Source of the DNA: Chloroflexota bacterium
Lineage (GTDB): Bacteria; Chloroflexota; Limnocylindria; P2-11E
Assembly (NCBI GenBank): GCA_005889295.1
Contig: VBEY01000232.1
Span: 1-40,789 of the forward strand
DNA: 40,789 nt
Reading direction: 5' to 3'
Shown here: piece after piece, positions 8,051-24,388 of the stretch
Layout: each line of letters opens with the position of its first letter
How positions within the stretch are numbered: the first letter of the stretch is position 1
Program-made: the position numbers and the translations under genes
The notes under the pieces: generated by a model
What the model was told of the DNA's origin: nothing
Database searches by the model: none
The model's input: only the letters and a program-made list of their open reading frames with translations

Positions 8051-8572
8051 CTAGGGCAAAAGTCGCGTTGGCGTAAACCCAGAGGGTCGGAAGAACGCCA
8101 CGGACAGCCCGACCCGGACCGCGTCGGCGCTTGAGAGCGCCTCCGGCGTATGGAGCCGGGCCAGGACGCGCACCCGGTACGCGACGGCGCCGGGCGGTGG
8201 ATCGAGCGCCACATCGAACGTGGCATTTTCCCCCGCACGAACCAACCGCGCGTCGCTCAGCGCGAACTGCCGCGGTCGTCCGGTCGCGTGGTCGTACCAG
8301 GCGACACGGATGAAGGCTTCGCGGACCTCTGGATCAATGACCTCGACCGTCGCGTGAAAGCCCATCGGCTGGTCGGGCACCGGGATGAGCGCGCTCTCGA
8401 TCCCCCACGCGCGACCACCCGGGACGCCAACGAGAAACTCGGGACCATCCGCACCAAAAGATCCGCGCGGCGTCGTGCGGCGGTACGGAGGCCCTCCATC
8501 GGCGCTCGTCGAGAGGGCGAGCGCCAAAGCGACCACGAGCGCGCACAGGAGGCTCGCGATGGTCTTCGACAC
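8051..8572 (-). CDS. Small secreted protein of unknown function
   Basis: The protein has 173 residues, with an N-terminal signal peptide (KTIASLLCALVVALALALS then Ser/Ala-rich) and a mature region of alternating hydrophobic residues suggesting a beta-sandwich, with segments such as FIRVAWYDHATGRP and AYRVRVLARL. I recognise no family. The GTG at 8572 is chosen over the GTG at 8581 because a TAGGGT -10 box (8580-8585) sits 7 bases upstream of it and would overlap the other. Upstream are three roughly 22-base tandem repeats with GTGCG/CGCAC half-sites that could bind a regulator. It lies downstream of the GH38 fusion but seems to be its own transcription unit. Confidence 0.6.
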   Translation of the reverse strand: MSKTIASLLCALVVALALALSTSADGGPPYRRTTPRGSFGADGPEFLVGVPGGRAWGIESALIPVPDQPMGFHATVEVIDPEVREAFIRVAWYDHATGRPRQFALSDARLVRAGENATFDVALDPPPGAVAYRVRVLARLHTPEALSSADAVRVGLSVAFFRPSGFTPTRLLP

Positions 8573-8579
8573 GCGCGAC

Positions 8580-8585
8580 ACCCTA
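8580..8585 (-). promoter_or_regulatory. Putative leaderless -10 box (TAGGGT)
   Basis: TAGGGT on the minus strand lies 7 bases upstream of the GTG at 8572. No Shine-Dalgarno sequence is present. It decides the start chosen for the secreted protein. Confidence 0.4.
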
Positions 8586-8614
8586 GTCGTCCAAGGACAC
8601 CGTGTCTGTCCTCC

Positions 8615-8679
8615 ATTCGTGCGAAGACGTCGCACGTTCGTGCGGGAGCCGTCGCACATTCGTGCGCACGCCGTCTCAG
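8615..8679. repeat. Three tandem ~22-base repeats with GTGCG/CGCAC palindromes
   Basis: Units at 8615-8635, 8636-8657 and 8658-8679 share the pattern TTCGTGCG-N5/6-GTCGCAC (the third ends GTCTCAG). Within units GTGCGA faces TCGCAC, and between units CGCACG faces CGTGCG, so there are overlapping dyads. The array fills the spacer between the GH38 stop and the secreted-protein promoter. It looks like a multi-site operator, though the binder is unknown. Confidence 0.6.
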
Positions 8680-11678
8680 GCCAGCTGCACGATCCATGTC
8701 CCGATCTCGTAGGGCGCAAGACGCGCTTGCGCGACGTCCCCCTCGACCTCGAGGGGAGCCGCGGTCCGAACGACGTCGAGCCCGGTGTTACCGAGACCGA
8801 GCTCTCCTTCTCGCAGGTCAACCGGACGCGATGCGCGGATGGCCCGGTCGAAGCGGAGCGCTCCAGACGCCTCCTCGCGCCGGGGATTGGCAAGGCGCAG
8901 AACGAGCCCTCCGTCCGGTCCGGCCCGCAGCGCACTGAGGACGAGCGGCGTGGCCGGATCGATGAACGAGACGAAGCACTGGGAATGCCCATCGCCCAAG
9001 AGCGGGAGAGGCGGCGACAACCACTCACGGATCTGGCGCGCAGCGCGCGCCAGGTCCGTCCGGTCATCGAGCGGGACCACGGTGTAGCGGTAGGCGCGCT
9101 TGCCGATGGACTGCGCCGATGGCGTCGCGAGCTCGGGACCGGCATGCCCCCGGCGCTCTGGCAGGTCTCCCCGCGACAGAAAGCCGACTGCGCGCAGCAG
9201 CGTGATCGCGATCGTGCCGCCGTCGTGCAGGACGGAGTACTCCCGCAGGCCGTCCACTCCGACCGCCAGTCCCTTGGTCGCGCCCATCACCCCGACGAAG
9301 TCGTGCAGGCAGGCCTCCGCCGTGGGTGGCTCTATCCACCGGGGACGGAGGCCGAAACGATTCGACCGCTCGAGGAACGCGAAGGCCGCGCCGCTCTGGT
9401 GCGTTAGGGCGCGAGTGCCGGTCTCGCAGAGGACGCGCAGGCGCTGATCACTCGCGCGGTTGTCGACCTCGAGCCGCACGTCGACTCGCCGCTCGCCCGC
9501 GTCGAGCGAGACCTCGATCCGGACCGGGCAGTCCACGAGCTCGGGCGAACGCGCGAGGCGATCGTCACGAAGGCGCGCCGGCAAACGGAGCACGAGGTCG
9601 ACGGTCGCGGTCGCGCGGTCGCCCGCGACGGACGCGGCGCGAGTCCCGCTGGCGCCTTCCGATCCCACGGTGGGTCCGGCATAGGAGTAGGTGTATTCGT
9701 CGCCGCGGTCGCCTTCGGAAATGAGTCGGTTCTGGCGGCCGCCCCGCTCTCCGGTGGCCTTGTCGACGATCACGAAGCTCCCATCTGGCGCGACCTCCAC
9801 GCGCAAGAGGCCGTTCTCGATAGCCGAGTCGCCGTCCACGCTCACCGCGGCGCTTTCCGCCGCAGCCAGCGGCGAGAGTCCGAGCCCCCCTGCGTGCACC
9901 CGGGTTGGGCGTCCGTCGACAGAGACGACCGCGTCGCGAGACCACGGCAGCGGATTCCAGATCATCGGCGCATCGCCGGGTCCCGCGAGCTCGGAAAGCA
10001 GCTTGTCCGCGAGAGCGCCGCCGCGTTCGCGAACAAAGGCGAAGCGCGGCGCCATGTCGATGTCGTGCACCGCGTCGATGGAGCAGCCACAGATCGAGTC
10101 GTGCGGGTGGTTCTGCAAGAGCATCCGCCAGAGGATCCGCAGCTCGTCGCGAGACCGTCCACCGGTGAGCGCGTCGAGCGGCTCGCACCACTCCAGAAGA
10201 AGCCGCTCACACGCGACGTTCTCCTGCTTGATCCAGACCCGCGTCGAATTCACGCCGCGGAGGATCGGGCGGTAGCGACCGCTCACGATCTCGCCGTTCA
10301 CCTCGTGCTCAAGCGGCGGCATGGCCGCGGCGAATTCTTCGAGGCTCGCGATCCGTGCGTCGACGTTGCGGAACACCTGCCGCATCTCGCGCACCGCCTC
10401 GGGCAGCCGCGCGTACGCGTCGACGTGGTCGTCGCCGACCATGAGGAGCAATGCGTCGCCGTTGGCGTACGGCGTCAGCCGGTCGAGGATGCGCGTGGTC
10501 TTCGCCCGGACGCGGCGGCGGAGGGCGGCGGGATCCTCGTCCGGGAGACCGACGAGCGAAAGCGCGTTCGAGTAGTGGTCGACGAGATGAGCGGCGCGGA
10601 CGCGGTCGCCCGACGGCGCTTCCCACCAGAACTCACTGCCCACTGACTCGCCCTGGTCGCCCATGCCGCGCGCGAATACGTAGGTGTCGTAACCGAAGGC
10701 CCGCAGGATCTGAGGCAGCTGAGCGGGATGGCCGAACGGATCGGCGACGTAGGCCACGCGCGAGGCTCGGCCGAGCTCGCCCGCGCTGCGCAGTCCCTCC
10801 TGGAGGTTGCGGAGGATCGATTCACCGGACACGAGAAGCAGGTCCGCGAGGACGTGCCACGGCCCGATGAAGAGGCGCTCGGCCTTCACGAGCGCTTCGA
10901 CCCGTGGCCGGTCGGCGGGTCGTTTCTCCAGGTAATCCTGGATCGCGATGGTCTGTCCGTCGAATGTGAACGAGCGGAACTCAGCGTCGCGCTCGAGGAT
11001 GTCGAGGAGGCGCGACACCATCGGGACGAGCCGCGCGCGGTAACCCTCGAAGCGCTCGTACCACTCGCGGTCCCAGTGCGTGTGCGGGATCACGAATGCG
11101 CGCCACCGGAGCCGGCGCCGCAGAAGCGCGACGGCGCGCGGCGCGAGAAGGCCCGCGGCGATGCCAACGGCCATCCCGCCAAGCACATCGAAGGGGTAAT
11201 GGACCCCGACGACGACGCGCGCGAGGGCCGCGGAGGCCCCGAGGAGAAGGATCGGTGCGCGATATTTCGGGGACACCTGGGCGAACGCGATGGCGGCTCC
11301 CATCGCCAGGGCGGCGTCGCCCGAAGGGAACGAGAACGACGAGGGATGCGCGATGACGGTCTCCGGTGCCGGGAGGAGGCCCGGCGCGTTCGCGAGCGCG
11401 TCAAACGGGCGCGGCCGCCGGACGATCAGCTTCAGGATCTCGGTGAACCCCCACGCGGCGAGCATCGCGAGGACGACAGTGCCGGTCGCCGCGATCCCGC
11501 GCCGGTTCAGGCCGCGCGAGCGAAGGAGAAGGAACGCCAGGATCCACCAGAAGAAGCCGTTCCAGTTCAGATACGTGAGCGCGACGGCGATGACCGAGGT
11601 GACGAGGTTTCGCTGCGCCGCGATCGCGAGGTAGAGCTGGGTGTCGAAGTTCCCGAGCGCGGCGAGAAGATCGTTCAA
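8676..11678 (-). CDS. PAP2 lipid phosphatase - GH38 alpha-mannosidase fusion protein
   Basis: One uninterrupted 1000-residue frame. Residues 1-190 are a membrane PAP2/BcrC-like undecaprenyl-diphosphatase domain with about five or six hydrophobic helices, KLIVRRPRPF (83-92), SFPSGDAAL (115-123) and RVVVGVHYPFD (154-164). The usual PSGH His is Asp121. From residue 191 a complete GH38 mannosidase follows: PHTHWDREWY (198-207), FDGQ, GPWHVLADLLLVSGE, YVADPFGHPAQLPQIL with the nucleophile Asp313, and NHPHDSICGCS with a likely Zn-binding His. GH38 enzymes remove alpha-mannose. No stop or convincing internal start separates the domains. The TTG start overlaps the DedA stop (TTGA). Inference: the mannosidase is tethered to the cytoplasmic face and may act on polyprenol-linked glycans. 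A mis-joined assembly must be excluded. Confidence 0.85.
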   Translation of the reverse strand: MNDLLAALGNFDTQLYLAIAAQRNLVTSVIAVALTYLNWNGFFWWILAFLLLRSRGLNRRGIAATGTVVLAMLAAWGFTEILKLIVRRPRPFDALANAPGLLPAPETVIAHPSSFSFPSGDAALAMGAAIAFAQVSPKYRAPILLLGASAALARVVVGVHYPFDVLGGMAVGIAAGLLAPRAVALLRRRLRWRAFVIPHTHWDREWYERFEGYRARLVPMVSRLLDILERDAEFRSFTFDGQTIAIQDYLEKRPADRPRVEALVKAERLFIGPWHVLADLLLVSGESILRNLQEGLRSAGELGRASRVAYVADPFGHPAQLPQILRAFGYDTYVFARGMGDQGESVGSEFWWEAPSGDRVRAAHLVDHYSNALSLVGLPDEDPAALRRRVRAKTTRILDRLTPYANGDALLLMVGDDHVDAYARLPEAVREMRQVFRNVDARIASLEEFAAAMPPLEHEVNGEIVSGRYRPILRGVNSTRVWIKQENVACERLLLEWCEPLDALTGGRSRDELRILWRMLLQNHPHDSICGCSIDAVHDIDMAPRFAFVRERGGALADKLLSELAGPGDAPMIWNPLPWSRDAVVSVDGRPTRVHAGGLGLSPLAAAESAAVSVDGDSAIENGLLRVEVAPDGSFVIVDKATGERGGRQNRLISEGDRGDEYTYSYAGPTVGSEGASGTRAASVAGDRATATVDLVLRLPARLRDDRLARSPELVDCPVRIEVSLDAGERRVDVRLEVDNRASDQRLRVLCETGTRALTHQSGAAFAFLERSNRFGLRPRWIEPPTAEACLHDFVGVMGATKGLAVGVDGLREYSVLHDGGTIAITLLRAVGFLSRGDLPERRGHAGPELATPSAQSIGKRAYRYTVVPLDDRTDLARAARQIREWLSPPLPLLGDGHSQCFVSFIDPATPLVLSALRAGPDGGLVLRLANPRREEASGALRFDRAIRASRPVDLREGELGLGNTGLDVVRTAAPLEVEGDVAQARLAPYEIGTWIVQLA

Positions 11679-12310
11679 CGCGAACGGACGTGGCGCCAGA
11701 CGAATAGCGCGACACCGACGACGATCAGGCCTGCCACGATGTAATCGAGACCGCGAAGCTGGTGCTTCAGGTCCTGCCAGTTATCGCCAAGAACCATCCC
11801 GGCCCAGACCAGGAGCATGACCCAGGGCACGGCGCCGACGATCGAGAAGACAAGAAAACGCCAGAGCGGCATGCGCGCGATGCCCGCCGGGACGGAGATA
11901 AAGGTGCGGACGATCGGGAGCATCCGGGAGAAGAGCACCGTCAGATCCCCCCAGCGAGCGAACCAACGGTCAGCGGTCTCGAGATCGTGGGCGCTGATCA
12001 GCACGTAACGTCCGTAGCGCTCGAGGAGAGGACGACCGCCGAACGCCCCGACCGCGTAACTGACCAGTGAGCCGACGGTGTTCCCCAGCACACCGGCGAT
12101 GACCGCGCCCCAGTAGGTCCACTGCGCGCCGGTCAGAGGCTCCACGACCCCTCGGGAGACGCTCCAGCCGGCGAATGGGAGGATCAGCTCGGACGGGATC
12201 GGAATGGCCGCGCTCTCGATGGCCATCGCGATGACCACGCCGACGTAGCCGAAACGGCCGTACAACGAGTCGATGAAGGGAAGGACGAATTGGTCGACGG
12301 CCTCGATCAA
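11675..12310 (-). CDS. DedA-family (SNARE-associated/VTT) membrane protein
   Basis: The protein has 211 residues and about five or six hydrophobic segments. Family signatures are ESAAIPIPSELILPFAGW near residue 32, the G-N-T-V-G-S stretch near residue 76, FSRMLPIVRTFISVPAGIAR near residue 127 (the conserved re-entrant segment with Arg) and GAVPWVMLLVWAG. DedA proteins are proton-coupled membrane proteins. Several translocate phospholipids or undecaprenyl phosphate across the membrane. It is translationally coupled (TTGA) to the PAP2-GH38 fusion, so a role in polyprenyl-phosphate recycling is plausible, although this is inference. The TTG start is 8 bases downstream of a TACGAT -10 box shared with the divergent glycosyltransferase gene. 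Confidence 0.9.
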   Translation of the reverse strand: MIEAVDQFVLPFIDSLYGRFGYVGVVIAMAIESAAIPIPSELILPFAGWSVSRGVVEPLTGAQWTYWGAVIAGVLGNTVGSLVSYAVGAFGGRPLLERYGRYVLISAHDLETADRWFARWGDLTVLFSRMLPIVRTFISVPAGIARMPLWRFLVFSIVGAVPWVMLLVWAGMVLGDNWQDLKHQLRGLDYIVAGLIVVGVALFVWRHVRSR

Positions 12311-12317
12311 GTCTCCG

Positions 12318-12324
12318 TATCGTA
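12318..12324. promoter_or_regulatory. Bidirectional overlapping -10 element (TATCGTA)
   Basis: Only 22 bases separate the divergent starts at 12310 (minus) and 12333 (plus). On the plus strand TATCGT (12318-12323) lies 9 bases before ATG. On the minus strand TACGAT (12324-12319) lies 8 bases before TTG. Both match TANNNT and occupy the same seven bases, so both transcripts would be leaderless or nearly so. Their -35 regions would lie inside the opposite gene. Inferred from sequence. Confidence 0.5.
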
Positions 12325-12332
12325 GTCAAGCC

Positions 12333-13550
12333 ATGTCAGAGACTTCCGCGCTCGCGGCCGACATGCGCCGTGCCCTGCGCGCGCAGGACCGCGCCGACCT
12401 CGTCGTCGGTATCCCGAGCTTCCGCAACGCGGCCACGATCGGCCACGTAACGAAGGCGGCGGCGGAGGGGTTGCGCCGCCACTTCCCCGACAAGCGCGCG
12501 GTGATCGTGAACGCCGACGGCGGCTCCGAGGACGGCACACCCGATCGGGTGCGAGCGTCGGCGGACGGCGTGCCGACGGTCGCGGGCCGCTACGAGGGTC
12601 GGTCCGGCAAGGGCTCGGCCTTCCGCGCGATCTTCGAGGCGGTCGTCCTGCTTGACGCGAAGGCGTGCGCGGTGGTCGACAGCGATCTTCGGAGCATCAC
12701 ACCCGAATGGATCGCGCGCTTGATCGGTCCGGTGGTCCGCGGCGAGGCGGACTACGTCACCCCGCTCTACGCGAGGCACAAACACGATGGGACGATCACC
12801 AACACGATCGCGTACCCGCTCACCCGTGCGCTGTATGGCGCGCGCGTGCGGCAGCCGATCGGAGGCGAGTTCGGTTTTGCTGCCGAGCTCGCGAAGGTCT
12901 ACCTCGGTGAGCCCGTGTGGGACACGGACGTCGCGAAGTTCGGCATCGACATATTCATGACGACGACCGCGCTTGCGCGCCGGGTACGCGTTGCGCAGGC
13001 GTTCCTCGGCGCCAAGATCCACGACCCCAAGGACCCCGGCGCCGACCTCGGGCCGATGTTCACGCAGGTTGTGGGGACCCTGCTGACGCTCGCTCGGAAG
13101 TACGCCGACATCTGGCGTCCGGTGACGGGCTCGCACGATGTTCCGGTGATCGGTGAGATCTCCGCGGTCGAACCTGAGCCGGTGAACGCGAGCGTGCGGG
13201 TGCTGGTCGAGAAGTTCCGCGCCGGCGCGGCGGAGCAGGACAAGGCCTGGGCCGACATTCTTTCGGCCGACACCCGCGACGTCGCGAGAAAGGCCGCCGA
13301 GAGCGGCAACGCCAGCGCGATCGGAGCCCGGTTCTGGGCGAAGGCCGTATACGAGATCGTCGCCGCGGCGAAGAACCGCGACGACACCGAGGTCCTCGCG
13401 CGGGCCATGCTGCCGCTCTACTTCGGGCGCGTCGCGGCCCTCATCGGCGAGGTGCAGGGGCTGGATCAAGCCGGCGCCGAGCGTGTCGTCGAGCAGCAGG
13501 CGCTCGCCTTCGAGCAGACGAAGCCGTACCTCCTGGAGCGCTGGGCCTGA
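12333..13550 (+). CDS. GT-A-fold glycosyltransferase, glucosyl/mannosylglycerate synthase-like
   Basis: This is a 405-residue protein with a nucleotide-sugar-binding start (DLVVGIPSFRNAATIGHVT, near residue 22), NADGGSEDGT, a donor-loop SGKGSAFRAI and the metal-binding DSD at 116-118 in VVDSDLRSITPEW. IGGEFGF and DTDVAKFGIDIF follow. This arrangement resembles retaining GT2/GT78/GT81 enzymes such as mannosylglycerate and glucosyl-phosphoglycerate synthases. The C-terminal 150 residues are helical and unassigned. A GpgS-type enzyme lies in the same operon, so this one may add a second sugar or use another acceptor. The substrate is inferred only. The ATG gives a leaderless transcript from the shared -10 box. 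The stop overlaps the next gene's proposed CTG start. Confidence 0.75.
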   Translation: MSETSALAADMRRALRAQDRADLVVGIPSFRNAATIGHVTKAAAEGLRRHFPDKRAVIVNADGGSEDGTPDRVRASADGVPTVAGRYEGRSGKGSAFRAIFEAVVLLDAKACAVVDSDLRSITPEWIARLIGPVVRGEADYVTPLYARHKHDGTITNTIAYPLTRALYGARVRQPIGGEFGFAAELAKVYLGEPVWDTDVAKFGIDIFMTTTALARRVRVAQAFLGAKIHDPKDPGADLGPMFTQVVGTLLTLARKYADIWRPVTGSHDVPVIGEISAVEPEPVNASVRVLVEKFRAGAAEQDKAWADILSADTRDVARKAAESGNASAIGARFWAKAVYEIVAAAKNRDDTEVLARAMLPLYFGRVAALIGEVQGLDQAGAERVVEQQALAFEQTKPYLLERWA

Positions 13551-15649
13551 CGGCCTCCTTAAAGGAGGACCAGGTCGTCCTCGTCACCGAGGAGGATGGG
13601 GGCCTGCCGCTCGGCGCGATGAGCCCGCTCGGCCTCTACTACCACGACACGCAGTACCTCTCGGGCTACGCCCTCCGCGTGAACGGGTCCCGGCCCCTCC
13701 TGCTGTCGGCGAACACCGAGCAGAACTACGTCGCGACGTTCCAGCTCATGCATTCCGAAGGCGCCGTGCTCGGTACCGCGCGGCACGCCGCCGACACGCT
13801 CTCGATCCGGCGGACGCGTTTTCTCGCGGACGGCCTTCGTGAGCGGATCGGCGTCCTCAACGCAAACGCGCATCCGGTCGACGTGAGCGTCGAGCTCGAA
13901 TTCGAGGCCGCATTCCGGGACATGTTCGCGGTGCGCGCCTACCGCGATCTGAGCCTTGCCCCGCTCGCCTCGACGCGCGGCCCGCGCGAGGGCGGGCTGG
14001 TCTTTGAGCGCGTCGGCCGGGACGGAGTGCGACGGACGACCGAGATCACCCTGCGGCCCGCGCCGGACGCGATCGAAGGGAACATCTTTCGCGTGGCACG
14101 AACGCTCGGGCCGCAGCAGTTCCTGCAGCTGGAGCTTGCGGTCATCCCGCGCGAGGACGGTGCCGCCCCGGCGGCGTCGCCCGATCGGTTCGACGACGCG
14201 ATCGACGCGCTCAACGCTCGTTACCGGAGATTCCTGCGGTCGTGCTCGCGGTACACGACGAGCTCGGAGATGCTCGACGAGGGTCTCATCACCCGGAGCG
14301 CGCTCGACCTGCGGGCGCTGCTCGAGTTCCACCCGAGCGGACCGTATCCGACGGCCGGCATCCCCTGGTACGCGGTGCCCTTCGGTCGCGACGGGCTCAT
14401 CTCGGCGTACCAGACGCTCGGGTGGAATCCCGACATCGCGCGCGGGACGCTCCGCCTTCTCGCGAGCTACCAGGGCCACAAGGTCGACGACTTCACCGAA
14501 GAGGAGCCCGGGAAGATCTTCCACGAGCTCAGGCGAGGCGAGCTCGCGCGGCTTGGCGAGGTCCCGCATCACCCCTACTACGGGTCGGTCGACGCGACAC
14601 CGCTCTTCGCACTCGTCTTCGCGGAGACAGTGAAATGGACGGCCGATCGCGCGCTGTGGCGGGATCTGCTTCCCGCGGCGGAGCGGGCCCTCACGTGGTG
14701 CGACACCTACGGCGATCCCGACAAAGACGGCTATGTCGAATATGGCCACCGCCCCGGCGAGATGCGCAGCCAGGGTTGGAAGGACTCGGCGCAATCGCTC
14801 TCGGATCCCGACGGGAAGTGGTCGAAGCTTCCTGCCGCGCTCGTCGAGGTGCAGGCGTACGTCTACGCCGCGAAGATGGGCGTTGCCGATCTCTACGAGG
14901 TCGACGGCGACCGGACGCGCGCCGATCGCCTTCGCGGCGAGGCGAATGAGCTGCGGATCCGTTTCGAGCGCGACTTCTGGATGGAAGCCCAGCAGTGCTA
15001 CGCGCAGGCCCTCGACGGCGACAAGAAGCAGGTCCCTGCTGTGACGAGCAACGCCGGGCATGCCCTCTGGTGCGGGATCGCGAGTCCCGAGCGCGCGGCC
15101 GCAGTCACCCGACGGCTCATGGAGCTCGACATGTACACGGGTTGGGGCATCCGGACGCTCTCCAGCAAGTACCCGACGTACAACCCGATGAGCTATCACA
15201 ACGGGTCGGTCTGGCCGCACGACAACTCCCTGATCGTCCAGGGTTTCGCGCGTTACGGCCACCGCGAGGAGGCCGCCGAGGTCGTGGGCGCGCTGATCGA
15301 GGCCGGTCGCCGCTTTCCGAACTCGCAGCTTCCCGAGCTCTGGTGCGGTTTTCAGAGGGACCTCCGCTTCTCATCGCGGCCCGCCGACTACCTGGTCTCG
15401 TGCATCCCCCAGGCGTGGTCTGCCGGGATGGTCTTTCTCTGTCTGCGGGCGCTTCTCGGGATGCAGCCGGACCTGAACACGCAGCAGCTGCTCCTCGATC
15501 CCGCGCTCCCACCATGGCTCGATCGCATCGACGTCCGGGACATGAGGATCTTCGATTCGCGCGTCACCTTCCGCGTCCGGCGGAGCCAGCGCGGCGACCG
15601 CATCGTGGGCGGTCGTGGCCGAGTCACGAGGGCGGCTGCCACCGCGTGA
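13547..15649 (+). CDS. Glycogen-debranching-type glycosidase (GDE N-terminal domain + (alpha/alpha)6 barrel)
   Basis: This is a 700-residue two-domain glycosidase. The N-terminal GDE_N-like beta domain (about 1-210) starts LKEDQVVLVTEEDG and continues GLYYHDTQYLSGYALRVNG. The (alpha/alpha)6 toroid has GIPWYAVPFGRDGL, SQGWKDSAQSL (likely acid Asp), EVQAYVYAAKMG, GHALWCGI and NPMSYHNGSVWPHDN. Relatives include amylo-alpha-1,6-glucosidases and GH63 glucosyl/mannosylglycerate hydrolases. In this operon it could trim a glucosylglycerate-type product. The first ATG (13619) would cut off 24 conserved residues. The CTG at 13547 keeps them and overlaps the upstream stop as CTGA. A strong AAAGGAGG lies at 13561, inside the reading frame. 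The true start is therefore uncertain; the stop is firm. Confidence 0.82.
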   Translation: MTASLKEDQVVLVTEEDGGLPLGAMSPLGLYYHDTQYLSGYALRVNGSRPLLLSANTEQNYVATFQLMHSEGAVLGTARHAADTLSIRRTRFLADGLRERIGVLNANAHPVDVSVELEFEAAFRDMFAVRAYRDLSLAPLASTRGPREGGLVFERVGRDGVRRTTEITLRPAPDAIEGNIFRVARTLGPQQFLQLELAVIPREDGAAPAASPDRFDDAIDALNARYRRFLRSCSRYTTSSEMLDEGLITRSALDLRALLEFHPSGPYPTAGIPWYAVPFGRDGLISAYQTLGWNPDIARGTLRLLASYQGHKVDDFTEEEPGKIFHELRRGELARLGEVPHHPYYGSVDATPLFALVFAETVKWTADRALWRDLLPAAERALTWCDTYGDPDKDGYVEYGHRPGEMRSQGWKDSAQSLSDPDGKWSKLPAALVEVQAYVYAAKMGVADLYEVDGDRTRADRLRGEANELRIRFERDFWMEAQQCYAQALDGDKKQVPAVTSNAGHALWCGIASPERAAAVTRRLMELDMYTGWGIRTLSSKYPTYNPMSYHNGSVWPHDNSLIVQGFARYGHREEAAEVVGALIEAGRRFPNSQLPELWCGFQRDLRFSSRPADYLVSCIPQAWSAGMVFLCLRALLGMQPDLNTQQLLLDPALPPWLDRIDVRDMRIFDSRVTFRVRRSQRGDRIVGGRGRVTRAAATA
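13561..13568 (+). promoter_or_regulatory. Strong Shine-Dalgarno AAAGGAGG without a canonical start nearby
   Basis: AAAGGAGG lies 14 bases after the proposed CTG start at 13547 and about 50 bases before the first in-frame ATG (13619). No ATG, GTG or TTG follows at the normal 5-10 base distance in the conserved frame. It may drive initiation at a non-canonical codon or simply encode Lys-Glu. Confidence 0.3.
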
Positions 15650-16863
15650 CGCGCCGGCGTCGACGCGTCGTCCTCGTCCACTACACCGCTCCCTCGATCC
15701 TCGGCGGTGTGGAGCAGGTGATGGGTGCGCATGCGACCGCGCTGCTTGAGGCGGGCGCCGACGTGACCATCGTCGCCGGGCGCGGCCGCGCGCCGCGCGG
15801 CGTGCGTATGACCCGCATCGGAGAGGTCGACTCCAGGAACAAGCGTGTGCTGCGCGACTTTCGATCTCTCGCGCAGGGCGAGCGCACGAAGGCGCACGAC
15901 GCTTTGGTCGAGAGGCTCGTGCGCAAGCTACGACCGATCGTCGCGAAGGCGGACCGGGTTGTCGTCCACAACGTCCTGACCATGCACAAGGACCTCGCGC
16001 TCACGGAGGCGCTCGTCCGACTTGCGCGCGACCGCCCCGGCGTCGTGATCGCGTGGACGCATGACCTCGCCTGGTCCGACCCGCAATACGCGAACGAGCG
16101 CCATCCCGGCGACCCGTGGGGTCTCATCGCCCGCGCCCACCCAGGTATTCGCTACGTCGCCGTGTCGGACGAGCGGGCGGACCAGCTGGCCGCGCTCGCG
16201 GGTCTGCGGCGCGAGGGTGTGGCGGTGGTCCCGAACGGCGTCGACATCGCGGCGGCGCTCGGCCTTTCTTCGGCCGGGGCGCGGATCGCCGAGCGGCTCG
16301 ACCTCTACCGCGCCGATCCGCTTCTCGTGCTGCCCGCCCGGCTCACTCGACGAAAGCGCATCGAGGCCGCCATCGCGGCGACGGCCGCGCTCCGGGGACG
16401 AGGTCACGCCGCGATGCTCGTCGTGACCGGCCCACCCGGACCGCACAACCCGGCCAACGCTGGCTACCTCGCCGAGCTCAGCGCGCTCGCCAAGCAGGTC
16501 GAGGGGGTCCACCTCTTTCACGAGCTCGGGCTCAGGGCGCCGTATCGAGTCATCGCGGACATGTACGCACTCGCCGATGCGCTTGTACTGCCCAGCCAGA
16601 GCGAGGGGTTCGGGATCCCGTTGCTCGAAGCCGCACTCCATCGCCTGCCCATCGTGTGCAGCGACCTCGCCACGCTGCGCGCGCTCGCCGGCGATGCGGC
16701 GACCTACGTGCCGCCGGACGCGTCGGGCGAGGTGATTGCGGACGCGATCGAGCGATCGTTGGGTGAGCCCGGACCTCGCTTTCGCGCGCGGGTGCGCGCG
16801 ATGGCCTGGTCGCGAGTCCTCAAAGAGCGCGTGGTCCCACTCGTGCTTGAGGGAACCGCATGA
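15646..16863 (+). CDS. GT4-family glycosyltransferase
   Basis: This 405-residue GT-B enzyme has an N-terminal Rossmann domain with GGVEQVMGAHATALLEAGADV near residue 20, a linker with VVPNGVD, the C-terminal donor domain with LLVLPARLTRRKRIEAAI, and the EX7E signature SEGFGIPLLEA near residue 325. GT4 enzymes are retaining and commonly use GDP-mannose or UDP-glucose. The gene overlaps the debranching-type glycosidase (GTGA) and the GpgS fusion (ATGA). A role adding mannose or glucose to the GpgS product is plausible by analogy with mannosylglucosyl-phosphoglycerate synthesis in Petrotoga. Specificity cannot be read from sequence. GTG at 15646 is chosen because it gives a normal N-terminus (VTRRRRRVVLVHYTAP) and the standard coupling overlap. 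Confidence 0.85.
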   Translation: MTRRRRRVVLVHYTAPSILGGVEQVMGAHATALLEAGADVTIVAGRGRAPRGVRMTRIGEVDSRNKRVLRDFRSLAQGERTKAHDALVERLVRKLRPIVAKADRVVVHNVLTMHKDLALTEALVRLARDRPGVVIAWTHDLAWSDPQYANERHPGDPWGLIARAHPGIRYVAVSDERADQLAALAGLRREGVAVVPNGVDIAAALGLSSAGARIAERLDLYRADPLLVLPARLTRRKRIEAAIAATAALRGRGHAAMLVVTGPPGPHNPANAGYLAELSALAKQVEGVHLFHELGLRAPYRVIADMYALADALVLPSQSEGFGIPLLEAALHRLPIVCSDLATLRALAGDAATYVPPDASGEVIADAIERSLGEPGPRFRARVRAMAWSRVLKERVVPLVLEGTA

Positions 16864-18683
16864 AGGTCCTCGTTGCGATCACCGATCCCGAGCGCGAGAG
16901 CGGACTCCTCGAGACGGCGGCCGCGCTCGCCTGCGAGGGCGAGGTCGTGGTCGCCTCGGCGATCGAGGTCACCGGTGACGCGACGCTCGCCTCCGCGCAA
17001 CCCGAGGCACGCGCTCGGCGCCGAGCCCTCGACGCCCTCGCGGGCGAGCTCCCGGGCCGGCACCTCCGAAGCCTCGTGACGGTCGCGCGCGTCGGCTGGG
17101 ATGCCATTCGCGAGGCCTGCGCGACCGAGCGGCCGGACCTGCTCGTCATTGGTTGGCGCCGCCCCGGATGGGACGTGCTCGGGACCACGATCGAGGAGAT
17201 CCTGCGCCTGCCGCCGTGCGACCTCGCAGTGGTGAAGGGTCGACCGGCGCACGCCAAACGCATCCTCGTGCCGGTCCGCGGCGGCAGGTACGCGCAGCTC
17301 GCCGCGCGACTCGGGATCGAGCTGGCGCGATCGCAAGGCGGTTCGGTGACTCTGCTTCACGTCGCCGAGCGGGGCGGCGGCAAGAAGCCGCAAACGCTCT
17401 ACCAGCTCCTCGGCGAGCGCGCGTACGACGAGCGCGTGGAGCGGCTTGTCACACGATCGGGCGATCCCGCGAAGGTGATCCGGGACGAGCTGTCCGAGCA
17501 CGACGCGATCGTGTTTGGCGCCACCGGTCGCGAAGGCGCTCGTGACCCGCTCGGCCCCGTCGGCCAGGCGATCATCGGTGAAGCCCGCAACGCGGTTGTC
17601 GTCCGCACCAGCGCGCCGCTCGCCTCGCCGGTGTTCGTCGAGCGGACTCGTCTGCCGGCGGAACGTGCCGAACGCAGTCGCGTTCTGGGGGAGATCGTCG
17701 ACAAGTGGTTCGCCGAGAACACATTCAGTTCCACCGAGTTCGCAGACCTCCGCCGGCTCGTCGAGGCAAAAGAGCGGCAGGGGATCCGGATCTCGGTCGG
17801 CCTCCCGACGCTCAACGAGGAGGCCACGATCCGCAAGGTCATCCGGGCCATTCGCTCGCGTCTCGTCGAGCGTTTTCCGCTGGTCGACGAGCTCGTCGTG
17901 GTCGACTCGCGCTCGGATGACCGCACGCGCGAGATCGCGAGAGAAGAGGGCGTGCCTGTCTTCATCCACGACGAAATCCTCCCGGAGCTCGGGAGTTACC
18001 GCGGGAAAGGCGAGGCTCTCTGGAAGAGCCTGCATGTGCTGACTGGCGACATCGTTGTGTGGATCGATACCGACGTCACCAGCGCCCATCCGAAGTTCGT
18101 TTACGGCATCGTCGGTCCCTTGCTGATGCGGCCGGATCTGCAATTCGTGAAGGCTTTTTACCAGCGACCACTCCATATCGGAGACGAGCTGCAGGCGACC
18201 GGGGGCGGCCGCGTGACCGAGCTCGCGGCGCGCCCGATCCTGAACCTGTTCTTTCCCGAGCTGTCGGGGATCGTCCAGCCGCTTTCCGGCGAGCAGGCCG
18301 GACGACGGACGTTGCTCGAGCAGCTCCCCTTCTTCTCGGGCTACGGCGTCGAGACCGGTCTTCTCGTTGACACGTTGCAGCGCACAGGTCTCGGTGCGAT
18401 CGGGCAGGTGGACATGAAGCAGCGCATCCATCGGAACCAGTCGCTCTACGACCTGTCGAAAATGAGCTTCGAGATCCTTCAGGTCGCGATCAAACGAGTG
18501 GGCGAGGCGCACGGTGCGAATCTGCTCGAGGAGGCCAACTTCACGATGAAGCTCATCGCGGCGGGCGGCGGCAAGCTCCACCTCGAGATGCACGACATCA
18601 TCGACGTGGAGCGCCCGCCGATGGCGACGATCCCGGCATATCAGGCGAGGCGTAGCGCCGCGCTCGATACTGCCACCGGTTGA
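16860..18683 (+). CDS. Usp-Usp-glucosyl-3-phosphoglycerate synthase fusion
   Basis: The protein has 607 residues. Residues 1-128 and 132-258 are two universal-stress-protein domains (MKVLVAITDPE; KRILVPVRGG; VFGATGREG near 218-226; GQAIIGEARNAVVVRTSAP at the second domain's end). Residues 308-545 match GpgS: VGLPTLNEEATIRKVI, DELVVVDSRSDDRT, RGKGEALWKSL, the metal-binding DTD at 403-405, KAFYQRPL, TGGGRVTELAARPIL, QPLSGEQAGRR, GYGVETGLLVD and the RIHRNQSL histidine. GpgS transfers glucose from an NDP-glucose to 3-phosphoglycerate, the first step to glucosylglycerate or methylglucose lipopolysaccharide. The Usp pair may sense ATP or stress and regulate the synthase, which is inference. It overlaps both neighbours by 4 bases (ATGA, TTGA). 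No separate phosphatase (GpgP) is visible. Confidence 0.87.
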   Translation: MKVLVAITDPERESGLLETAAALACEGEVVVASAIEVTGDATLASAQPEARARRRALDALAGELPGRHLRSLVTVARVGWDAIREACATERPDLLVIGWRRPGWDVLGTTIEEILRLPPCDLAVVKGRPAHAKRILVPVRGGRYAQLAARLGIELARSQGGSVTLLHVAERGGGKKPQTLYQLLGERAYDERVERLVTRSGDPAKVIRDELSEHDAIVFGATGREGARDPLGPVGQAIIGEARNAVVVRTSAPLASPVFVERTRLPAERAERSRVLGEIVDKWFAENTFSSTEFADLRRLVEAKERQGIRISVGLPTLNEEATIRKVIRAIRSRLVERFPLVDELVVVDSRSDDRTREIAREEGVPVFIHDEILPELGSYRGKGEALWKSLHVLTGDIVVWIDTDVTSAHPKFVYGIVGPLLMRPDLQFVKAFYQRPLHIGDELQATGGGRVTELAARPILNLFFPELSGIVQPLSGEQAGRRTLLEQLPFFSGYGVETGLLVDTLQRTGLGAIGQVDMKQRIHRNQSLYDLSKMSFEILQVAIKRVGEAHGANLLEEANFTMKLIAAGGGKLHLEMHDIIDVERPPMATIPAYQARRSAALDTATG

Positions 18684-19534
18684 AGGTCCTTCGCTCCGTC
18701 GCAGAGGCCCGCGCGTTCCGCACGGCGTCGGCCACGGCCTCCATCGGGTTTGTCCCAACCATGGGTGCGCTCCATGAGGGACACGCCTCGCTCATCGCAC
18801 GTGCCGTCCGGGAGAACGACCTCGCGGTGGTCTCGATCTTCGTGAATCCCACGCAGTTCGGCCCGCAGGAGGACTTCGGGGCGTACCCGCGCGATGAGCC
18901 GGCCGATCTCGCAGCGTGCGAGCGCCTCGGGGCCACGATGGTCTTTGCGCCGACCGTCGACGAGCTGTACCCCGCGGGCGACGCGACCCGCGTGCAGCCC
19001 GGCCCGATCGCTGCGCGTCTCGAGGGCGCCGCGCGACCGGGGCACTTTGTAGGAGTGGCGACCGTTTTGACGAAGCTGTTCGCGATCGTGCGTCCCGACG
19101 TCGCGTACTTCGGCCAGAAGGACTTTCAGCAGCTCCGCGTGGTCCAGACCGTCGCCCGCGATCTCCGGCTCGCCGTCCGCATCGCCGGATGCCCCACCGT
19201 GCGGGACCCCGATGGACTCGCGATAAGTTCGCGCAACCGCTACCTCTCGGCGGAGCATCGCCGGAGCGCTCTCGCGCTCTCGCGGGCGTTGCGGGCGACG
19301 GAAGAGATGTGGTCTCGCGGCGAACGCGATCCCGCGAAGCTGCGCGAGCACCTCAAGCGCCTCGCGGCGGGCCCGGGCGTTGGGCTCGAATATGTGTCCG
19401 TGGCCGATCCGCTCACCCTCGACGAGCTCGACCGTCCGGCCGACCGTGCTCTCATCTCGCTCGCGGCGCGTGTCGACGGGACGCGGCTCATCGACAACGT
19501 GCTTGTCGGTATCGCGCTCGAGGCGCTCCCGTGA
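18680..19534 (+). CDS. panC: Pantothenate synthetase
   Basis: The protein has 284 residues, the usual PanC length. It condenses pantoate with beta-alanine using ATP via a pantoyl-adenylate. Motifs are FVPTMGALHEGH (24-35, the HIGH-like ATP site), VSIFVNPTQFGP, RPGHFVGVATVLTKLF, YFGQKDFQQ and AISSRNRYLS (KMSKS-like). No key residue is missing. It starts at TTG (18680), overlapping the GpgS stop as TTGA, and MKVLRSVAEA matches the normal N-terminus. It lies in a glycoside operon and not beside panB/panE, which are 4 kb away on the other strand. Confidence 0.97.
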   Translation: MKVLRSVAEARAFRTASATASIGFVPTMGALHEGHASLIARAVRENDLAVVSIFVNPTQFGPQEDFGAYPRDEPADLAACERLGATMVFAPTVDELYPAGDATRVQPGPIAARLEGAARPGHFVGVATVLTKLFAIVRPDVAYFGQKDFQQLRVVQTVARDLRLAVRIAGCPTVRDPDGLAISSRNRYLSAEHRRSALALSRALRATEEMWSRGERDPAKLREHLKRLAAGPGVGLEYVSVADPLTLDELDRPADRALISLAARVDGTRLIDNVLVGIALEALP

Positions 19535-20754
19535 CGACGATCGCCGAAGAGCGGATGGCCGTCCCGTCGGAGCCCACGGTCGAGCAGGTCTCGCTAAAGG
19601 AGAGGCGCGGCCAGGCGCTCCTCGGAACGATTACGGCGGCGCACTTCTCGCATCACGTCACGAATTCGCTTCTCAACCCGCTGCTGCCGCTGATCCGCAA
19701 CGCCTTCGCATTGAGCTATGCCGAGAGCGGCTTCGCGGTATCGGCGTTCTCGATCGCCGCGGGTCTCGCGAACGCGCCGTGGGGGTTGCTGGCCGACCGC
19801 ATCGGGTCGCGCGTGGTCATCGTCGGCGGTCTTTTCCTGATGGGAGCGGCGAGCGTCGCGCTGGCGACGGCGGGCTCGTACTGGCAGCTCCTCGCGCTTC
19901 TGGTGCTGCTCGGGATCGTGTCCGGTTCGTACCATGGACCCGCCGCCGCGCTCATCGCGCGCATCTTTTCCCCGCGAGTGCGCGGAACGGCGATGGGCAT
20001 CCACATCACCGGCGGCCATCTCTCGTTCTTCGCGGCGCCCGCCGTCGCGGGTCTTCTCGCGACGGCGACGGGCACCTGGCGCACGCCGTACGTCTGGTTC
20101 GCGGCGGCGCCGATCGTCTTCGGTGCGCTCCTTTGGTTCGTGGCGCCGCCGGTGCACGAGCGTGCGGCGCCCGGGGATCGGTTCGCGGCCTTCCGCGAGA
20201 TCGGCCGGGTCTTCCGCGATGTCGGACCCCTGGTATCGCTCTCTATCGCCTTCCAGTTCGGCATCGCCGCACTGCTCGCGTTCCTCGCGCTCTATCTCGT
20301 CGACGCGCGCGGCCTCTCGCCGGCGCTCGCCGCCGTGTTCTTCGGCGTGCCGCAGCTGGTCGGCGTGATCGGCGCGCCACTCGGGGGCTTTCTGTCCGAT
20401 CGCTTCGGCCGACGCCGCGTGATGCTCGGCGGTCTCGCGCTCATGGGTCCCGCCGTGTACGCCGTCACGGCCGTGCCGAACGAAGCTCTTCTCGTCACGC
20501 TCGCCGTGTTCGGCCTGCTCTGGTCGATGCGCTCGACGGTGACCGAGACGCTCGTCATGGACAGCGCCGCGCCAGGCCGACGAGCGACGGTACTCGGCGG
20601 GTACTACCTGTTGAACGCGCACGTCGGCGGCATCGGGGCCCCGCTCTTTGGTTTTCTCGCCGAGGCGGTCGGTCTCGCGACCGCGTTCAGCTGGATCGGG
20701 ATCGCGTTCGTCGCGATGTCGGCCGTCGCACTCCTCGTAGGGCGGCGTTTGTAG
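19531..20754 (+). CDS. MFS transporter
   Basis: This 407-residue protein has about 12 hydrophobic segments. The typical loop 2-3 motif appears as GLLADRIGSRVVIVGG near residue 90 and again in the second half as GGFLSDRFGRRRVMLGG near residue 290, marking the two six-helix halves. Drug, sugar and metabolite exporters or importers share this form, so the substrate is unknown. It is the last gene of the six-gene operon, and export of the glycoside product or precursor uptake are possibilities only. GTG at 19531 overlaps the panC stop (GTGA). An ATG at 19555 would also leave the first helix intact. Confidence 0.85.
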   Translation: MTTIAEERMAVPSEPTVEQVSLKERRGQALLGTITAAHFSHHVTNSLLNPLLPLIRNAFALSYAESGFAVSAFSIAAGLANAPWGLLADRIGSRVVIVGGLFLMGAASVALATAGSYWQLLALLVLLGIVSGSYHGPAAALIARIFSPRVRGTAMGIHITGGHLSFFAAPAVAGLLATATGTWRTPYVWFAAAPIVFGALLWFVAPPVHERAAPGDRFAAFREIGRVFRDVGPLVSLSIAFQFGIAALLAFLALYLVDARGLSPALAAVFFGVPQLVGVIGAPLGGFLSDRFGRRRVMLGGLALMGPAVYAVTAVPNEALLVTLAVFGLLWSMRSTVTETLVMDSAAPGRRATVLGGYYLLNAHVGGIGAPLFGFLAEAVGLATAFSWIGIAFVAMSAVALLVGRRL

Positions 20755-20765
20755 CGGGCCTGGCG

Positions 20766-21245
20766 CTAGAGGGCGCCGATCACCTGAACGCCGCGCCGCT
20801 GGATGAAGTACGTACCGCTCGAGGTGCTGAGCTGCAAGACCACGTCAACTTTCGCGCCAGCGTCCCACGTGGGTCCGTCGCGAACGCTGAGCGATAGGTG
20901 ATTGCGGCGATCGGCGGCGAACGTTTGCAGAGGCTGCGGCACGGTCTCCCAAATCTCGGCACCGTTCACCAGCCATGCCTTGTCGGCGCGCAACCCTTGC
21001 GGCGGGTCACTTTCGGCATCGGCCCGTAGGAAGATCGTGCCGCCAACGCCGCGCTTCGGAGTGGGAGCGGGCCCAGGCATGAGGTCGCGATACAGGTCGA
21101 CCTGAAGCGTGTACGAACGACCGTCGACGTAGATCTGATCGAGGGCGCCGCGCGCCTCCGGCCGGAGCGTCGACGAGGGCCCCGGCGAGCCGACGGCACC
21201 GCCGCAGGCGACGACCAGTAGGACGAGCGGGAGCAGGAGCCTCAC
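20766..21245 (-). CDS. Small lipoprotein of unknown function
   Basis: The protein has 159 residues. The N-terminus MRLLLPLVLLVVACGG is a short lipoprotein signal with lipobox LVVAC (Cys at position 14), followed by a Gly/Ser/Pro-rich tether and a compact mature domain (GRSYTLQVDLYRDLMPGP, later VDVVLQLSTSSGTYFIQRRG). It is predicted to be anchored outside the membrane. I recognise no family. It converges on the MFS gene with 11 bases between stops and diverges from the adenylate cyclase gene, with 74 bases between starts. The GTG start is chosen because it yields the signal peptide directly. Confidence 0.6.
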   Translation of the reverse strand: MRLLLPLVLLVVACGGAVGSPGPSSTLRPEARGALDQIYVDGRSYTLQVDLYRDLMPGPAPTPKRGVGGTIFLRADAESDPPQGLRADKAWLVNGAEIWETVPQPLQTFAADRRNHLSLSVRDGPTWDAGAKVDVVLQLSTSSGTYFIQRRGVQVIGAL

Positions 21246-21319
21246 GCCTGTCTAACGCACAGCTGCTCCAAAGGTTCCCATGGGGGTCGGCTCGCGGTCG
21301 GGAGCTGCGCGAGCGGAGA

Positions 21320-22564
21320 ATGCACCCGGTGCGAGTACTCGACCGGCTGCTTGGAATCGGAACCAAACCGACCGATCCGGCCGAAGACCGAAGACGAAAG
21401 CGCCTCTTGGTCGCGTTCGCGCTCGCGGTCATCGTGGTGGTCCCGCCCTGGGCGAGCATCTACTACGCCTACGGAGAATTCGTCGCCGCGATCTTTCCGC
21501 TCGTCTACGTTCCGCTGACGCTCGCGAACCTTGCCGTCTTCGCGCGCACTCACGACTTCGAACGTGCCCGCCAGATCCAGAGCCTCATCATCCTCACGCT
21601 CCCGTTCGGCGTCCATGTCGCGCTCGGCGGCTTCCAACCGTCGAGTGGCGTGGTGCTCTGGTCCGTCCTCGCGCCGTTCTGCGCACTCGTCTTTGGCGGC
21701 ATCGGCGCCGGGGTTCGCTGGCTCGTGGCCTTCGCCGCCGTCGTGGCGCTCGCAGCGCTCGTTCAGCCCCGCGAGGCAAATGGCCTGCCTGGCTGGGTCG
21801 TGACGGCCTTCTTCGCCGCGAACATCGCCACGATTTCGGCGGTCGCGTTCGCTCTGCTCGCCGGTTACGCGCGGCAGCTCGCGACGGAGCGCGCACGCTC
21901 GGAGCGGTTGCTCCTCAACGTGCTGCCAGCGCCAATCGCGACGCGGCTGCGGGAGCGCGAGGAGGTGATCGCCGACGCCTACGAGGAGGCGACCATGATC
22001 TTCGCGGACGTCGTGAATTCGACCCCGCTGACCGCCGAACTCACGCCCCGGCAGATGGTCGCGCTGCTCGACGAGTACGTCAGCGCCTTCGACGGTCTAG
22101 CCGATCGTCACGGAGTGGAAAAGATTCGCACGATCGGCGACAACTGGATGGGCGTCGCGGGCGTGCCGCGGCCGCGGCCCGACCACGCCGAGGCGGTCGC
22201 GCGGCTCGCGCTCGGGATGCTCGAATTCGCCGCTGAACGCTGCCGCTCCGGGTTGCGTTGCCTCGACTTCAGGATCGGCATCAATTCGGGCGCGGTCGTC
22301 GGTGGAGTCATCGGACGGCGCAAGTTCGTGTTCGACATCTGGGGCGATCCTGTCAACACGGCGGCGCGAATGGAGTCGCACGGCGAACCGGGGAAGATCC
22401 AACTGACGGAATTGACCTACGAGCTCCTCAAAGATCGCTTCGTCTGCGAGCCGCGCGGGACGATCGAGGTCAAAGGCAAGGGCCCGATGCGCACCTGGTG
22501 GCTCCTCGCTGAACGCGATCAACCCGGTCGGGGCGCGGAGACAAAGACCGCCGTCGCGACCTAG
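21320..22564 (+). CDS. Membrane-bound class III adenylate cyclase
   Basis: The protein has 414 residues: an N-terminal membrane domain with about five or six helices (29-183), a short helical linker (ATERARSERLLLNVLPAPIA) and a class III cyclase domain (about 218-395). Metal-binding Asp230 is in MIFADVVNST and Asp274 in RTIGDNW. Lys268 (VEKIRTIGD) and Asp339 (FDIWGDPVN) are the adenine-specifying pair, and Asn346 and Arg350 stabilise the transition state. It should make cAMP from ATP. The membrane domain resembles other MASE-like sensory regions but is not assigned. The gene's stop and the panE stop share the four bases CTAG (22561-22564). Two cyclic nucleotide-binding proteins lie within 14 kb and are candidate effectors. 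Confidence 0.88.
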   Translation: MHPVRVLDRLLGIGTKPTDPAEDRRRKRLLVAFALAVIVVVPPWASIYYAYGEFVAAIFPLVYVPLTLANLAVFARTHDFERARQIQSLIILTLPFGVHVALGGFQPSSGVVLWSVLAPFCALVFGGIGAGVRWLVAFAAVVALAALVQPREANGLPGWVVTAFFAANIATISAVAFALLAGYARQLATERARSERLLLNVLPAPIATRLREREEVIADAYEEATMIFADVVNSTPLTAELTPRQMVALLDEYVSAFDGLADRHGVEKIRTIGDNWMGVAGVPRPRPDHAEAVARLALGMLEFAAERCRSGLRCLDFRIGINSGAVVGGVIGRRKFVFDIWGDPVNTAARMESHGEPGKIQLTELTYELLKDRFVCEPRGTIEVKGKGPMRTWWLLAERDQPGRGAETKTAVAT

Positions 22565-23391
22565 GCGCGCGCAAGCGAGGCGATGAGCAGCGTCATCGCC
22601 TGGTTGAGGGGCGCCGCGACGCCCCGGCGCTCGCCTTCGCGCGCGACCGCACCGGAGATGGCATCGATCTCGGTCGGCCGGCCAGCCTCGACGTCCTGAA
22701 GCATCGACGAGCGATTCGCACCCGTGAGCGCGGCCATGGCGCGCCACTGCTTCACGGCCTCGTCCTCGCTGATGCGCACACCTGATGCCGTCGCGACCCG
22801 CGCGACCTCTCGGGCGATGCCATCGGCCACGCGCGAGGCGGGTGCGTCAGCGAGGAGCTCCGCGTTCGTCCGATGGATGAATGCGGTAAGCGGGTTGACC
22901 GCCGCGTTCGTGACGACCTTTCGCCACACCGCCGGCCACGCATCGTCGACGACGGTCACATCCATGCCGCCCTCATGAAGCGTTCGGCCGAGCTCGTCGA
23001 GCTTCGTCCGCGAGGTCGCGGCGGTCGGCCTCCCGAGCTCGACCTTGCCGGGTCCCGTCGCGCGGAGCTCGCCGTTCAGAAGCTGCGCCCCGACGTAGAT
23101 CACGCCGACGGCCGCGCGCTCGCGGCCGACGTGTTCCACGAGGATCTCGTAATTGCCGAGGCCGTTCTGGATCGTGAGGGCGACGCCGTCGGGCGCGAGG
23201 ATCTTCGCGGCGATCGCGGCCGCCCATGCGGTGCCCGGCGTCTTCGTCGTAAGAATCGCGGCGTCGACCGGTGTCTCATCGTCCCGGAGCGGCGCGCGGG
23301 TGCGGTCGACCTTCACGAGCTCGGCGCGACCCTCGAGCGCACGCGCGATCACGTGCCCGATCGCGCCCATGCCCAGGATCGCGACACGCAT
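22561..23391 (-). CDS. panE: 2-dehydropantoate 2-reductase (ketopantoate reductase)
   Basis: The protein has 276 residues. It opens with the NADP-binding MRVAILGMGAIGHVIARAL (GxGxxG at 7-12). TIQNGLGN near residue 94 is typical of ApbA/PanE, and WRKVVTNAAVNPLTAF near residue 162 holds the catalytic Lys and Asn of the C-terminal domain. The GANRSSMLQDVEAGRPTEID stretch near residue 230 is the conserved substrate-site segment. It reduces ketopantoate to pantoate. It directly follows panB with a 1-base TAATG overlap, so panB-panE supply pantoate for PanC. All expected motifs are present. Confidence 0.95.
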   Translation of the reverse strand: MRVAILGMGAIGHVIARALEGRAELVKVDRTRAPLRDDETPVDAAILTTKTPGTAWAAAIAAKILAPDGVALTIQNGLGNYEILVEHVGRERAAVGVIYVGAQLLNGELRATGPGKVELGRPTAATSRTKLDELGRTLHEGGMDVTVVDDAWPAVWRKVVTNAAVNPLTAFIHRTNAELLADAPASRVADGIAREVARVATASGVRISEDEAVKQWRAMAALTGANRSSMLQDVEAGRPTEIDAISGAVAREGERRGVAAPLNQAMTLLIASLARA

Positions 23392-24284: not shown

Positions 24285-24290
24285 TTCGAA

Positions 24291-24295
24291 CCTCC
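24291..24295 (-). promoter_or_regulatory. panB: Shine-Dalgarno GGAGG that fixes the panB start
   Basis: GGAGG on the minus strand lies 6 bases upstream of GTG (24284). The frame remains open for 150 codons further upstream, so this site decides the start. Confidence 0.65.
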
Positions 24296-24388
24296 GTCCA
24301 GGCCGGCTGCGTGCCGGTCCCGGCGTCAACGCAATCGTAGCGCCCGCTTGTATGTCGCAGGATTCATTCCAGATTCGGATCGAAGGCA

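Follow-up and report, generated by a model that had tools for sequence, protein, structure and literature searches.

A PAP2 lipid phosphatase fused to a GH38 alpha-mannosidase in one order of Chloroflexota

A stretch of 40,789 nucleotides from a Chloroflexota genome, here called the window, carries on its minus strand an open reading frame (8676-11678, TTG start at 11678) for a protein of 1000 amino acids, in which a PAP2 lipid phosphatase is continued, in one frame, by a complete GH38 alpha-mannosidase. PAP2 phosphatases have a central part in recycling the lipid carrier of cell wall precursors, and GH38 enzymes are known as soluble or lumenal mannosidases. The fusion combines known enzyme families in a new domain architecture that is fixed within one order, and we infer its function from its parts and its gene neighborhood. 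An earlier note on this DNA knew of no described PAP2-GH38 fusion, and our literature search likewise turned up no relevant description of one.

The fusion gene and its junction

Pfam searches with the 1000-residue protein placed PAP2 at residues 67 to 183 (66 bits), Glyco_hydro_38N at 194 to 453 (118 bits), Alpha-mann_mid at 474 to 563, and Glyco_hydro_38C at 620 to 831, all above the curated cutoffs. The reading frame and these domains bear out the substance of the earlier note, which had described a single frame joining a PAP2 phosphatase to a complete GH38 enzyme and had left the strand unstated; it is the minus strand.

8676..11678, minus strand: PAP2::GH38 fusion gene, 1000 aa, TTG start, identical one-frame junction in 25 genomes
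11109..11678, minus strand: PAP2 lipid phosphatase domain, residues 1-190 (Pfam PF01569; seven helices, five of them membrane spanning by analogy with LpxE)
11106..11114, minus strand: junction, residues 189-191, between the end of the last membrane helix (188) and the first GH38 strand (192), without a conserved start codon
8679..11105, minus strand: GH38 alpha-mannosidase, residues 192-1000 (N, middle, and C-terminal domains; Pfam, profile, and structure matches)

The junction is in one frame without a stop in 25 of the 26 genomes of the order that have a match, the window's own included; the 26th is cut by a contig end. The spacing between the PAP2 histidine and the GH38 motif HTHWD is exactly 39 residues in all 21 loci compared, and no conserved start codon was found at the junction across these 21 loci. 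The records of the fusion stem from several independent MAG projects, and all those that are named are labeled Chloroflexi. Misassembly, read-through, and chance are ruled out by this recurrence of an identical one-frame junction in 25 genomes and several independent projects. The earlier note had considered a misjoin near 11100, or relatives in which the two domains are always separate genes; we found neither. Separate translation of the GH38 part from an internal GTG codon (V196) in the window was also rejected, as the codon is GTC in most relatives and a start there would truncate the first GH38 strand. In one genome (G012), the fused gene is split over two frames near residues 449 to 477, probably by an assembly frameshift.

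On the opposite strand, an unnamed open reading frame (8150-8938, plus strand) overlaps the 3' end of the fusion gene. It is 30 to 48% conserved in relatives, a Pfam search with it gave no match, and it may be a gene or an antisense shadow.

Distribution and origin

The fused protein was found in all 11 sampled genomes of the genus, with some copies cut by contig ends, and in 26 of the order's 29 genomes; these 26 come from two families and seven of nine genera. Eighteen fused proteins are 49 to 85% identical to the window protein. Outside the order, no fusion was seen among the matches listed, either in 177 genomes of the class or, with a query spanning the junction, in 400 sampled genomes of the phylum; the contig search covered the best 80 of 461 relatives, which leaves room for a divergent fusion of this kind elsewhere. 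In both the class and the phylum searches, the GH38 matches outside the order align from about the start of GH38 and have no PAP2 part, which agrees, for the phylum sample outside the order, with the earlier statement that GH38 enzymes normally stand alone.

A tree of 78 GH38 domains sets the fused ones on one side of a fully supported branch (support, 100). Since they form one supported clade, a single origin, in the common ancestor of this Chloroflexota order, is the simplest reading. No re-split halves were found in the 29 genomes of the order. One genome (G011) carries both the fused GH38 and a separate, stand-alone GH38, and in ten loci no stand-alone GH38 was found beside DedA, PAP2, or GpgS.

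The PAP2 half

The tripartite motif of the PAP2 superfamily, KX6RP-PSGH-SRX5HX3D, is present as KLIVRRPRP, PSGD, and ARVVVGVHYPFD, and PF01569, above its cutoff in the window protein, is matched in 18/18 fused proteins.

11406..11432, minus strand: motif C1, KLIVRRPRP (K83-P91); R90 and P91 invariant, K83 in 17/18
11316..11327, minus strand: motif C2, PSGD (118-121); D121 invariant in 18/18, His replaced by Asp as in Aquifex LpxE
11187..11219, minus strand: motif C3, RVVVGVHYPFD (R154-D164); R154, H160, and D164 invariant

R90, P91, P118, S119, D121, R154, H160, and D164 are invariant in the 18 fused proteins. Only 23 of the 190 columns of the PAP2 half are invariant (12%), and all 8 of these residues, which were picked for testing from the known motifs, are among them (hypergeometric, 1e-8). 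K83 and G120 are altered in one genome alone (G022), where the lysine of C1 is replaced by glycine and C2 reads PSSD (locus L106); this may be phosphatase decay in one species, and judging from these two losses PAP2 activity may be dispensable there.

Inactivation of the PAP2 half by its PSGD motif is ruled out, as an active LpxE bears the same aspartate: Aquifex LpxE, with Asp for His in C2, is active on lipid A and C55-PP and complements Escherichia coli deficient in C55-PP phosphatase activity (PMC6581854). Among membrane PAP2 structures, a profile built from the fused proteins matched LpxE (6ebu, E=2e-17) and Bacillus YodM (5jki) best. With these the fused protein shares the PAP2 fold and motifs, an integral layout of seven helices (one amphipathic, one half, and five spanning) that places the site at helices 4/5 and 6/7, a likely outward-facing site, and C55-PP as a possible substrate; with LpxE specifically it shares PSGD instead of PSGH. 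Unlike LpxE and YodM, which stop after the last helix, it continues into a GH38 enzyme of 809 residues. Models for undecaprenyl-diphosphatase equivalogs score below their cutoffs (SepP, 57 versus 250 bits; PRK11837, 31 versus 229), and we do not class the PAP2 half as a member by this score test, although it may act like one. The earlier label "BcrC-like" is right as to a PAP2 phosphatase and loose as to BcrC, the C2 motif here being FPSGDAA, with Asp for the His of PSGH.

The GH38 half

The GH38 part has the N, middle, and C domains of the family together with its HxHxD motif, nucleophile aspartate, and distal histidine metal ligand.

11070..11084, minus strand: metal-ligand motif HTHWD (199-203), invariant; ligands H201 and D203 by homology
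10740..10742, minus strand: nucleophile and metal ligand D313, invariant; aligned with DTFG of 3lvt
10425..10430, minus strand: D417-H418 (GDDH), invariant; probable acid/base region
10101..10103, minus strand: metal ligand H526 (NHPHDSICGCS), invariant

H201, D203, D313 (which sits within VADPFGH), D417, H418, and H526 are invariant in the 18 fused proteins, in keeping with the full-length GH38 enzyme with catalytic Asp313 and metal ligands that had been proposed earlier. By family precedent, D417-H418 is probably the acid/base region and H526 a metal ligand. In a Foldseek search the soluble part is closest to the GH38 enzymes of Streptococcus pyogenes and Enterococcus faecalis, and in NCBIfam the sole GH38 model matched, in 18/18 members and below its cutoff, is the mannosylglycerate hydrolase MngB (NF007331; 369.6 bits in the window protein, cutoff 1138). 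These best structural and NCBIfam matches have in common with the fused GH38 the complete domain set and the catalytic residues; unlike it, they are stand-alone enzymes that lack a membrane domain. The fused proteins form a distinct clade, about 22 to 24% identical to the GH38 structures 2wyh, 3lvt, and 5kbp. From the conserved catalytic residues in PAP2 and GH38, both halves look active.

Membrane topology

The AlphaFold2 model (pTM, 0.79) was built on 18 sequences, with parts of the GH38 active site (275-282 and 527-537) below a pLDDT of 50. It has helices at residues 2-21, 25-37, 39-55, 59-83, 120-135, 137-157, and 162-188. The PAP2 motifs fall where helices 4 and 6 end and where helices 5 and 7 begin. 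The published description of LpxE (PMC6581854) gives it one amphipathic helix, one half helix, and five that span the membrane, and sets the active site at the periplasmic surface; the helices of the fusion match this description one to one, in order and in motif position.

GH38 starts at residue 192, three residues past the opposite end of helix 7. Since the PAP2 motifs lie at one end of this helix and GH38 at the other, the two active sites should sit on opposite faces of the membrane whatever the absolute orientation, as judged from sequence, model, and analogy. The GH38 side is bordered by Arg-rich stretches (53-60 and 180-193) and would, by the positive-inside rule, be cytosolic; the LpxE-like character of the PAP2 half (its PSGD motif and seven-helix layout) suggests that its site should face outward. 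No description of such an arrangement was found in the literature.

An adjoining DedA gene

Directly upstream lies a gene of the DedA family, whose TGA stop overlaps the TTG start of the fusion gene.

11675..12310, minus strand: DedA/VTT protein, UptA-like; 4-base overlap (TTGA) with the fusion gene, adjacent in 18/18 extended loci

The protein matches VTT with 81 bits, above the Pfam cutoff, and is the strongest VTT match of its genome. Its best NCBIfam match is UptA, at 164 bits against a cutoff of 250; this is in keeping with the earlier note, which assigned the coupled gene to DedA as a family with undecaprenyl-phosphate translocases. It resembles the UptA-type flippases in this top match and differs from them in scoring below the cutoff; its flippase role is predicted. 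No DUF368 flippase, the alternative, was found in the genomes of the order.

In the accepted recycling scheme, PAP2 in the outer leaflet and then DedA across the membrane act in sequence (PMC12826051), and COG0586 DedA-PAP2 fusions are on record (PMC10127716). As in those fusions, a DedA protein and a PAP2 phosphatase are joined physically or by operon; in contrast to them, the DedA gene here stays separate and overlaps its neighbor, and the fusion partner of PAP2 is a glycosidase. BacA is present in 29/29 genomes of the order, so the fused PAP2 would be an additional rather than the sole candidate for C55-PP hydrolysis, and a role as the only C55-PP phosphatase is ruled out. In G011, a stand-alone PAP2 gene is the direct neighbor of BacA on one contig (C3, 4461-5776).

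A divergent, probable glycosyl-glycerate cluster

Head to head with DedA, a cluster of four genes, which the earlier note leaves out, runs on the plus strand.

12273..13550, plus strand: GT2 glycosyltransferase, distant GpgS relative; true start possibly 12333, as 12273 falls within the DedA gene
13619..15649, plus strand: GDE_N plus GH63/MGH1-like glycoside hydrolase; nearest solved structure 7vma, an amylo-alpha-1,6-glucosidase
15646..16863, plus strand: GT4 glycosyltransferase; weak similarity to mannosylglucosylglycerate synthase among general GT4 models
16860..18683, plus strand: Usp domains fused to glucosyl-3-phosphoglycerate synthase (GpgS); NF010496, 379 bits, above the cutoff of 262

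Mannosylglucosylglycerate and glucosylglycerate are products of solute pathways, the former made with GpgS plus MggS or MggA. A solute of this kind is known in Petrotoga and Rhodopirellula (PMC3694870). The cluster resembles these pathways in having GpgS and a weakly MggS-like GT4 (62 bits against MggS, cutoff 640; other GT4 models score higher in some relatives) and is unlike them in its extra GT2 and GH63-like genes. We know of no described link of these pathways to PAP2 or DedA.

The cluster adjoins the DedA-fusion pair in one family of the order, as far as its contigs reach, and lies about 5 kb off in the other. Ten loci from other orders of the class have the GpgS and GT2 pair without a GH63-like gene, GT4, DedA, or the fusion nearby. 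The pair is ancestral in the class, and among the loci examined it is accompanied by the GH63-like gene, GT4, and DedA-PAP2::GH38 in this order alone. The three genomes here without the fusion also lack GT2, at a completeness of only 66 to 76%; neighborhood and co-absence are correlations within one clade. The pairing of Usp-GpgS with a GpgS-like GT2 is itself widespread in the class. The cluster is followed by pantothenate genes (18680-24758), with PanC after GpgS and PanE and PanB on the minus strand; PanC and GpgS are neighbors in many relatives as well.

The neighboring cluster, the MngB match, and the weak MggS similarity together make a mannosyl-glycerate-type glycoside the likeliest predicted substrate of the mannosidase, where the NCBIfam matches that suggest substrates (MngB, SepP, UptA, and MggS) are all below their cutoffs and MggS is outscored by other GT4 models in some relatives.

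Possible functions

Our leading explanation, held tentatively and at somewhat less than an even chance as a whole, is a two-headed integral membrane enzyme, formed when a PAP2 phosphatase of the LpxE/YodM type and a bacterial GH38 alpha-mannosidase were joined. The outward PAP2 site would dephosphorylate a lipid diphosphate, most likely C55-PP, and the coupled DedA protein would flip the product back inside. GH38, held at the cytosolic membrane surface where the last helix ends, would hydrolyze an alpha-mannoside. Its likeliest substrate would be a mannosylated glycoside of the glucosyl-glycerate type, either soluble or lipid carried, that the divergent cluster of GpgS, GpgS-like GT2, and GT4 may make. 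The fusion would thereby keep turnover of the mannoside at the membrane, in a fixed ratio to lipid-carrier recycling. To our knowledge, no biochemical link between lipid-carrier recycling and glycosyl-glycerate turnover is on record. A bolder form, which we consider unlikely, is an enzyme working on both faces, where outward hydrolysis of a polyprenyl diphosphate, served by a dedicated flippase, is tied to inward removal of mannose from a glycerate-primed or polyprenol-carried glycan, in a lipid-carrier cycle for an unknown Chloroflexota glycoconjugate.

The earlier note had placed both reactions on polyprenol-linked glycans at the inner face, which conflicts with a PAP2 site that should face outward and with neighbors that suggest glycosyl-glycerate metabolism. 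Amended so that GH38 works at the inner leaflet, removing mannose from a polyprenol-linked mannoside, and the carrier is regenerated from the outer leaflet by PAP2 and DedA, its idea of one lipid-glycan turnover machine fits the membership of PAP2 and DedA in the lipid-carrier cycle (PMC12826051) and the tethering of GH38 three residues from a membrane helix. However, the neighbors are glycosyl-glycerate genes with no recognizable lipid-linked polysaccharide cluster, and sites on opposite faces do not allow sequential action on one face. We regard the amended proposal as unlikely; lipid-linked mannan as the GH38 substrate is possible but unsupported.

Two unrelated activities could also have been joined by chance and kept through shared operon expression, without functional coupling, as no known pathway requires both and the fused GH38s form one clade, as from a single event. 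Yet the junction length and the operon have been maintained at 49 to 85% protein identity with no re-split found in the order, and we find a chance joining quite improbable. Slightly less probable still is that the PAP2 part serves mainly as a membrane anchor or localizer and GH38 alone matters catalytically. The PAP2 half does diverge faster (35 to 57% versus 52 to 75% identity for GH38, closest relatives left out), K83 is lost in G022, and BacA occurs in all 29 genomes, but the remaining PAP2 motif residues are invariant and the UptA-like DedA is adjacent in every locus examined. That PAP2 is instead the phosphatase step for the glycosyl-phosphoglycerate of the neighboring pathway, with both halves serving that pathway, is very improbable: the GpgS product is phosphorylated and no separate phosphoglycerate phosphatase was recognized among the cluster genes scanned, but GpgS products are cytosolic whereas the PAP2 site should point outward, and in other orders GpgS occurs with no PAP2 of the fusion type alongside.

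The two-headed enzyme acting on a mannosyl-glycerate-type glycoside is thus the reading that we prefer. The fixed fusion, the probable flippase in its operon, and the glycosyl-glycerate cluster beside it suggest that these uncultured soil bacteria tie mannoside turnover to lipid-carrier recycling in a way that has yet to be described.
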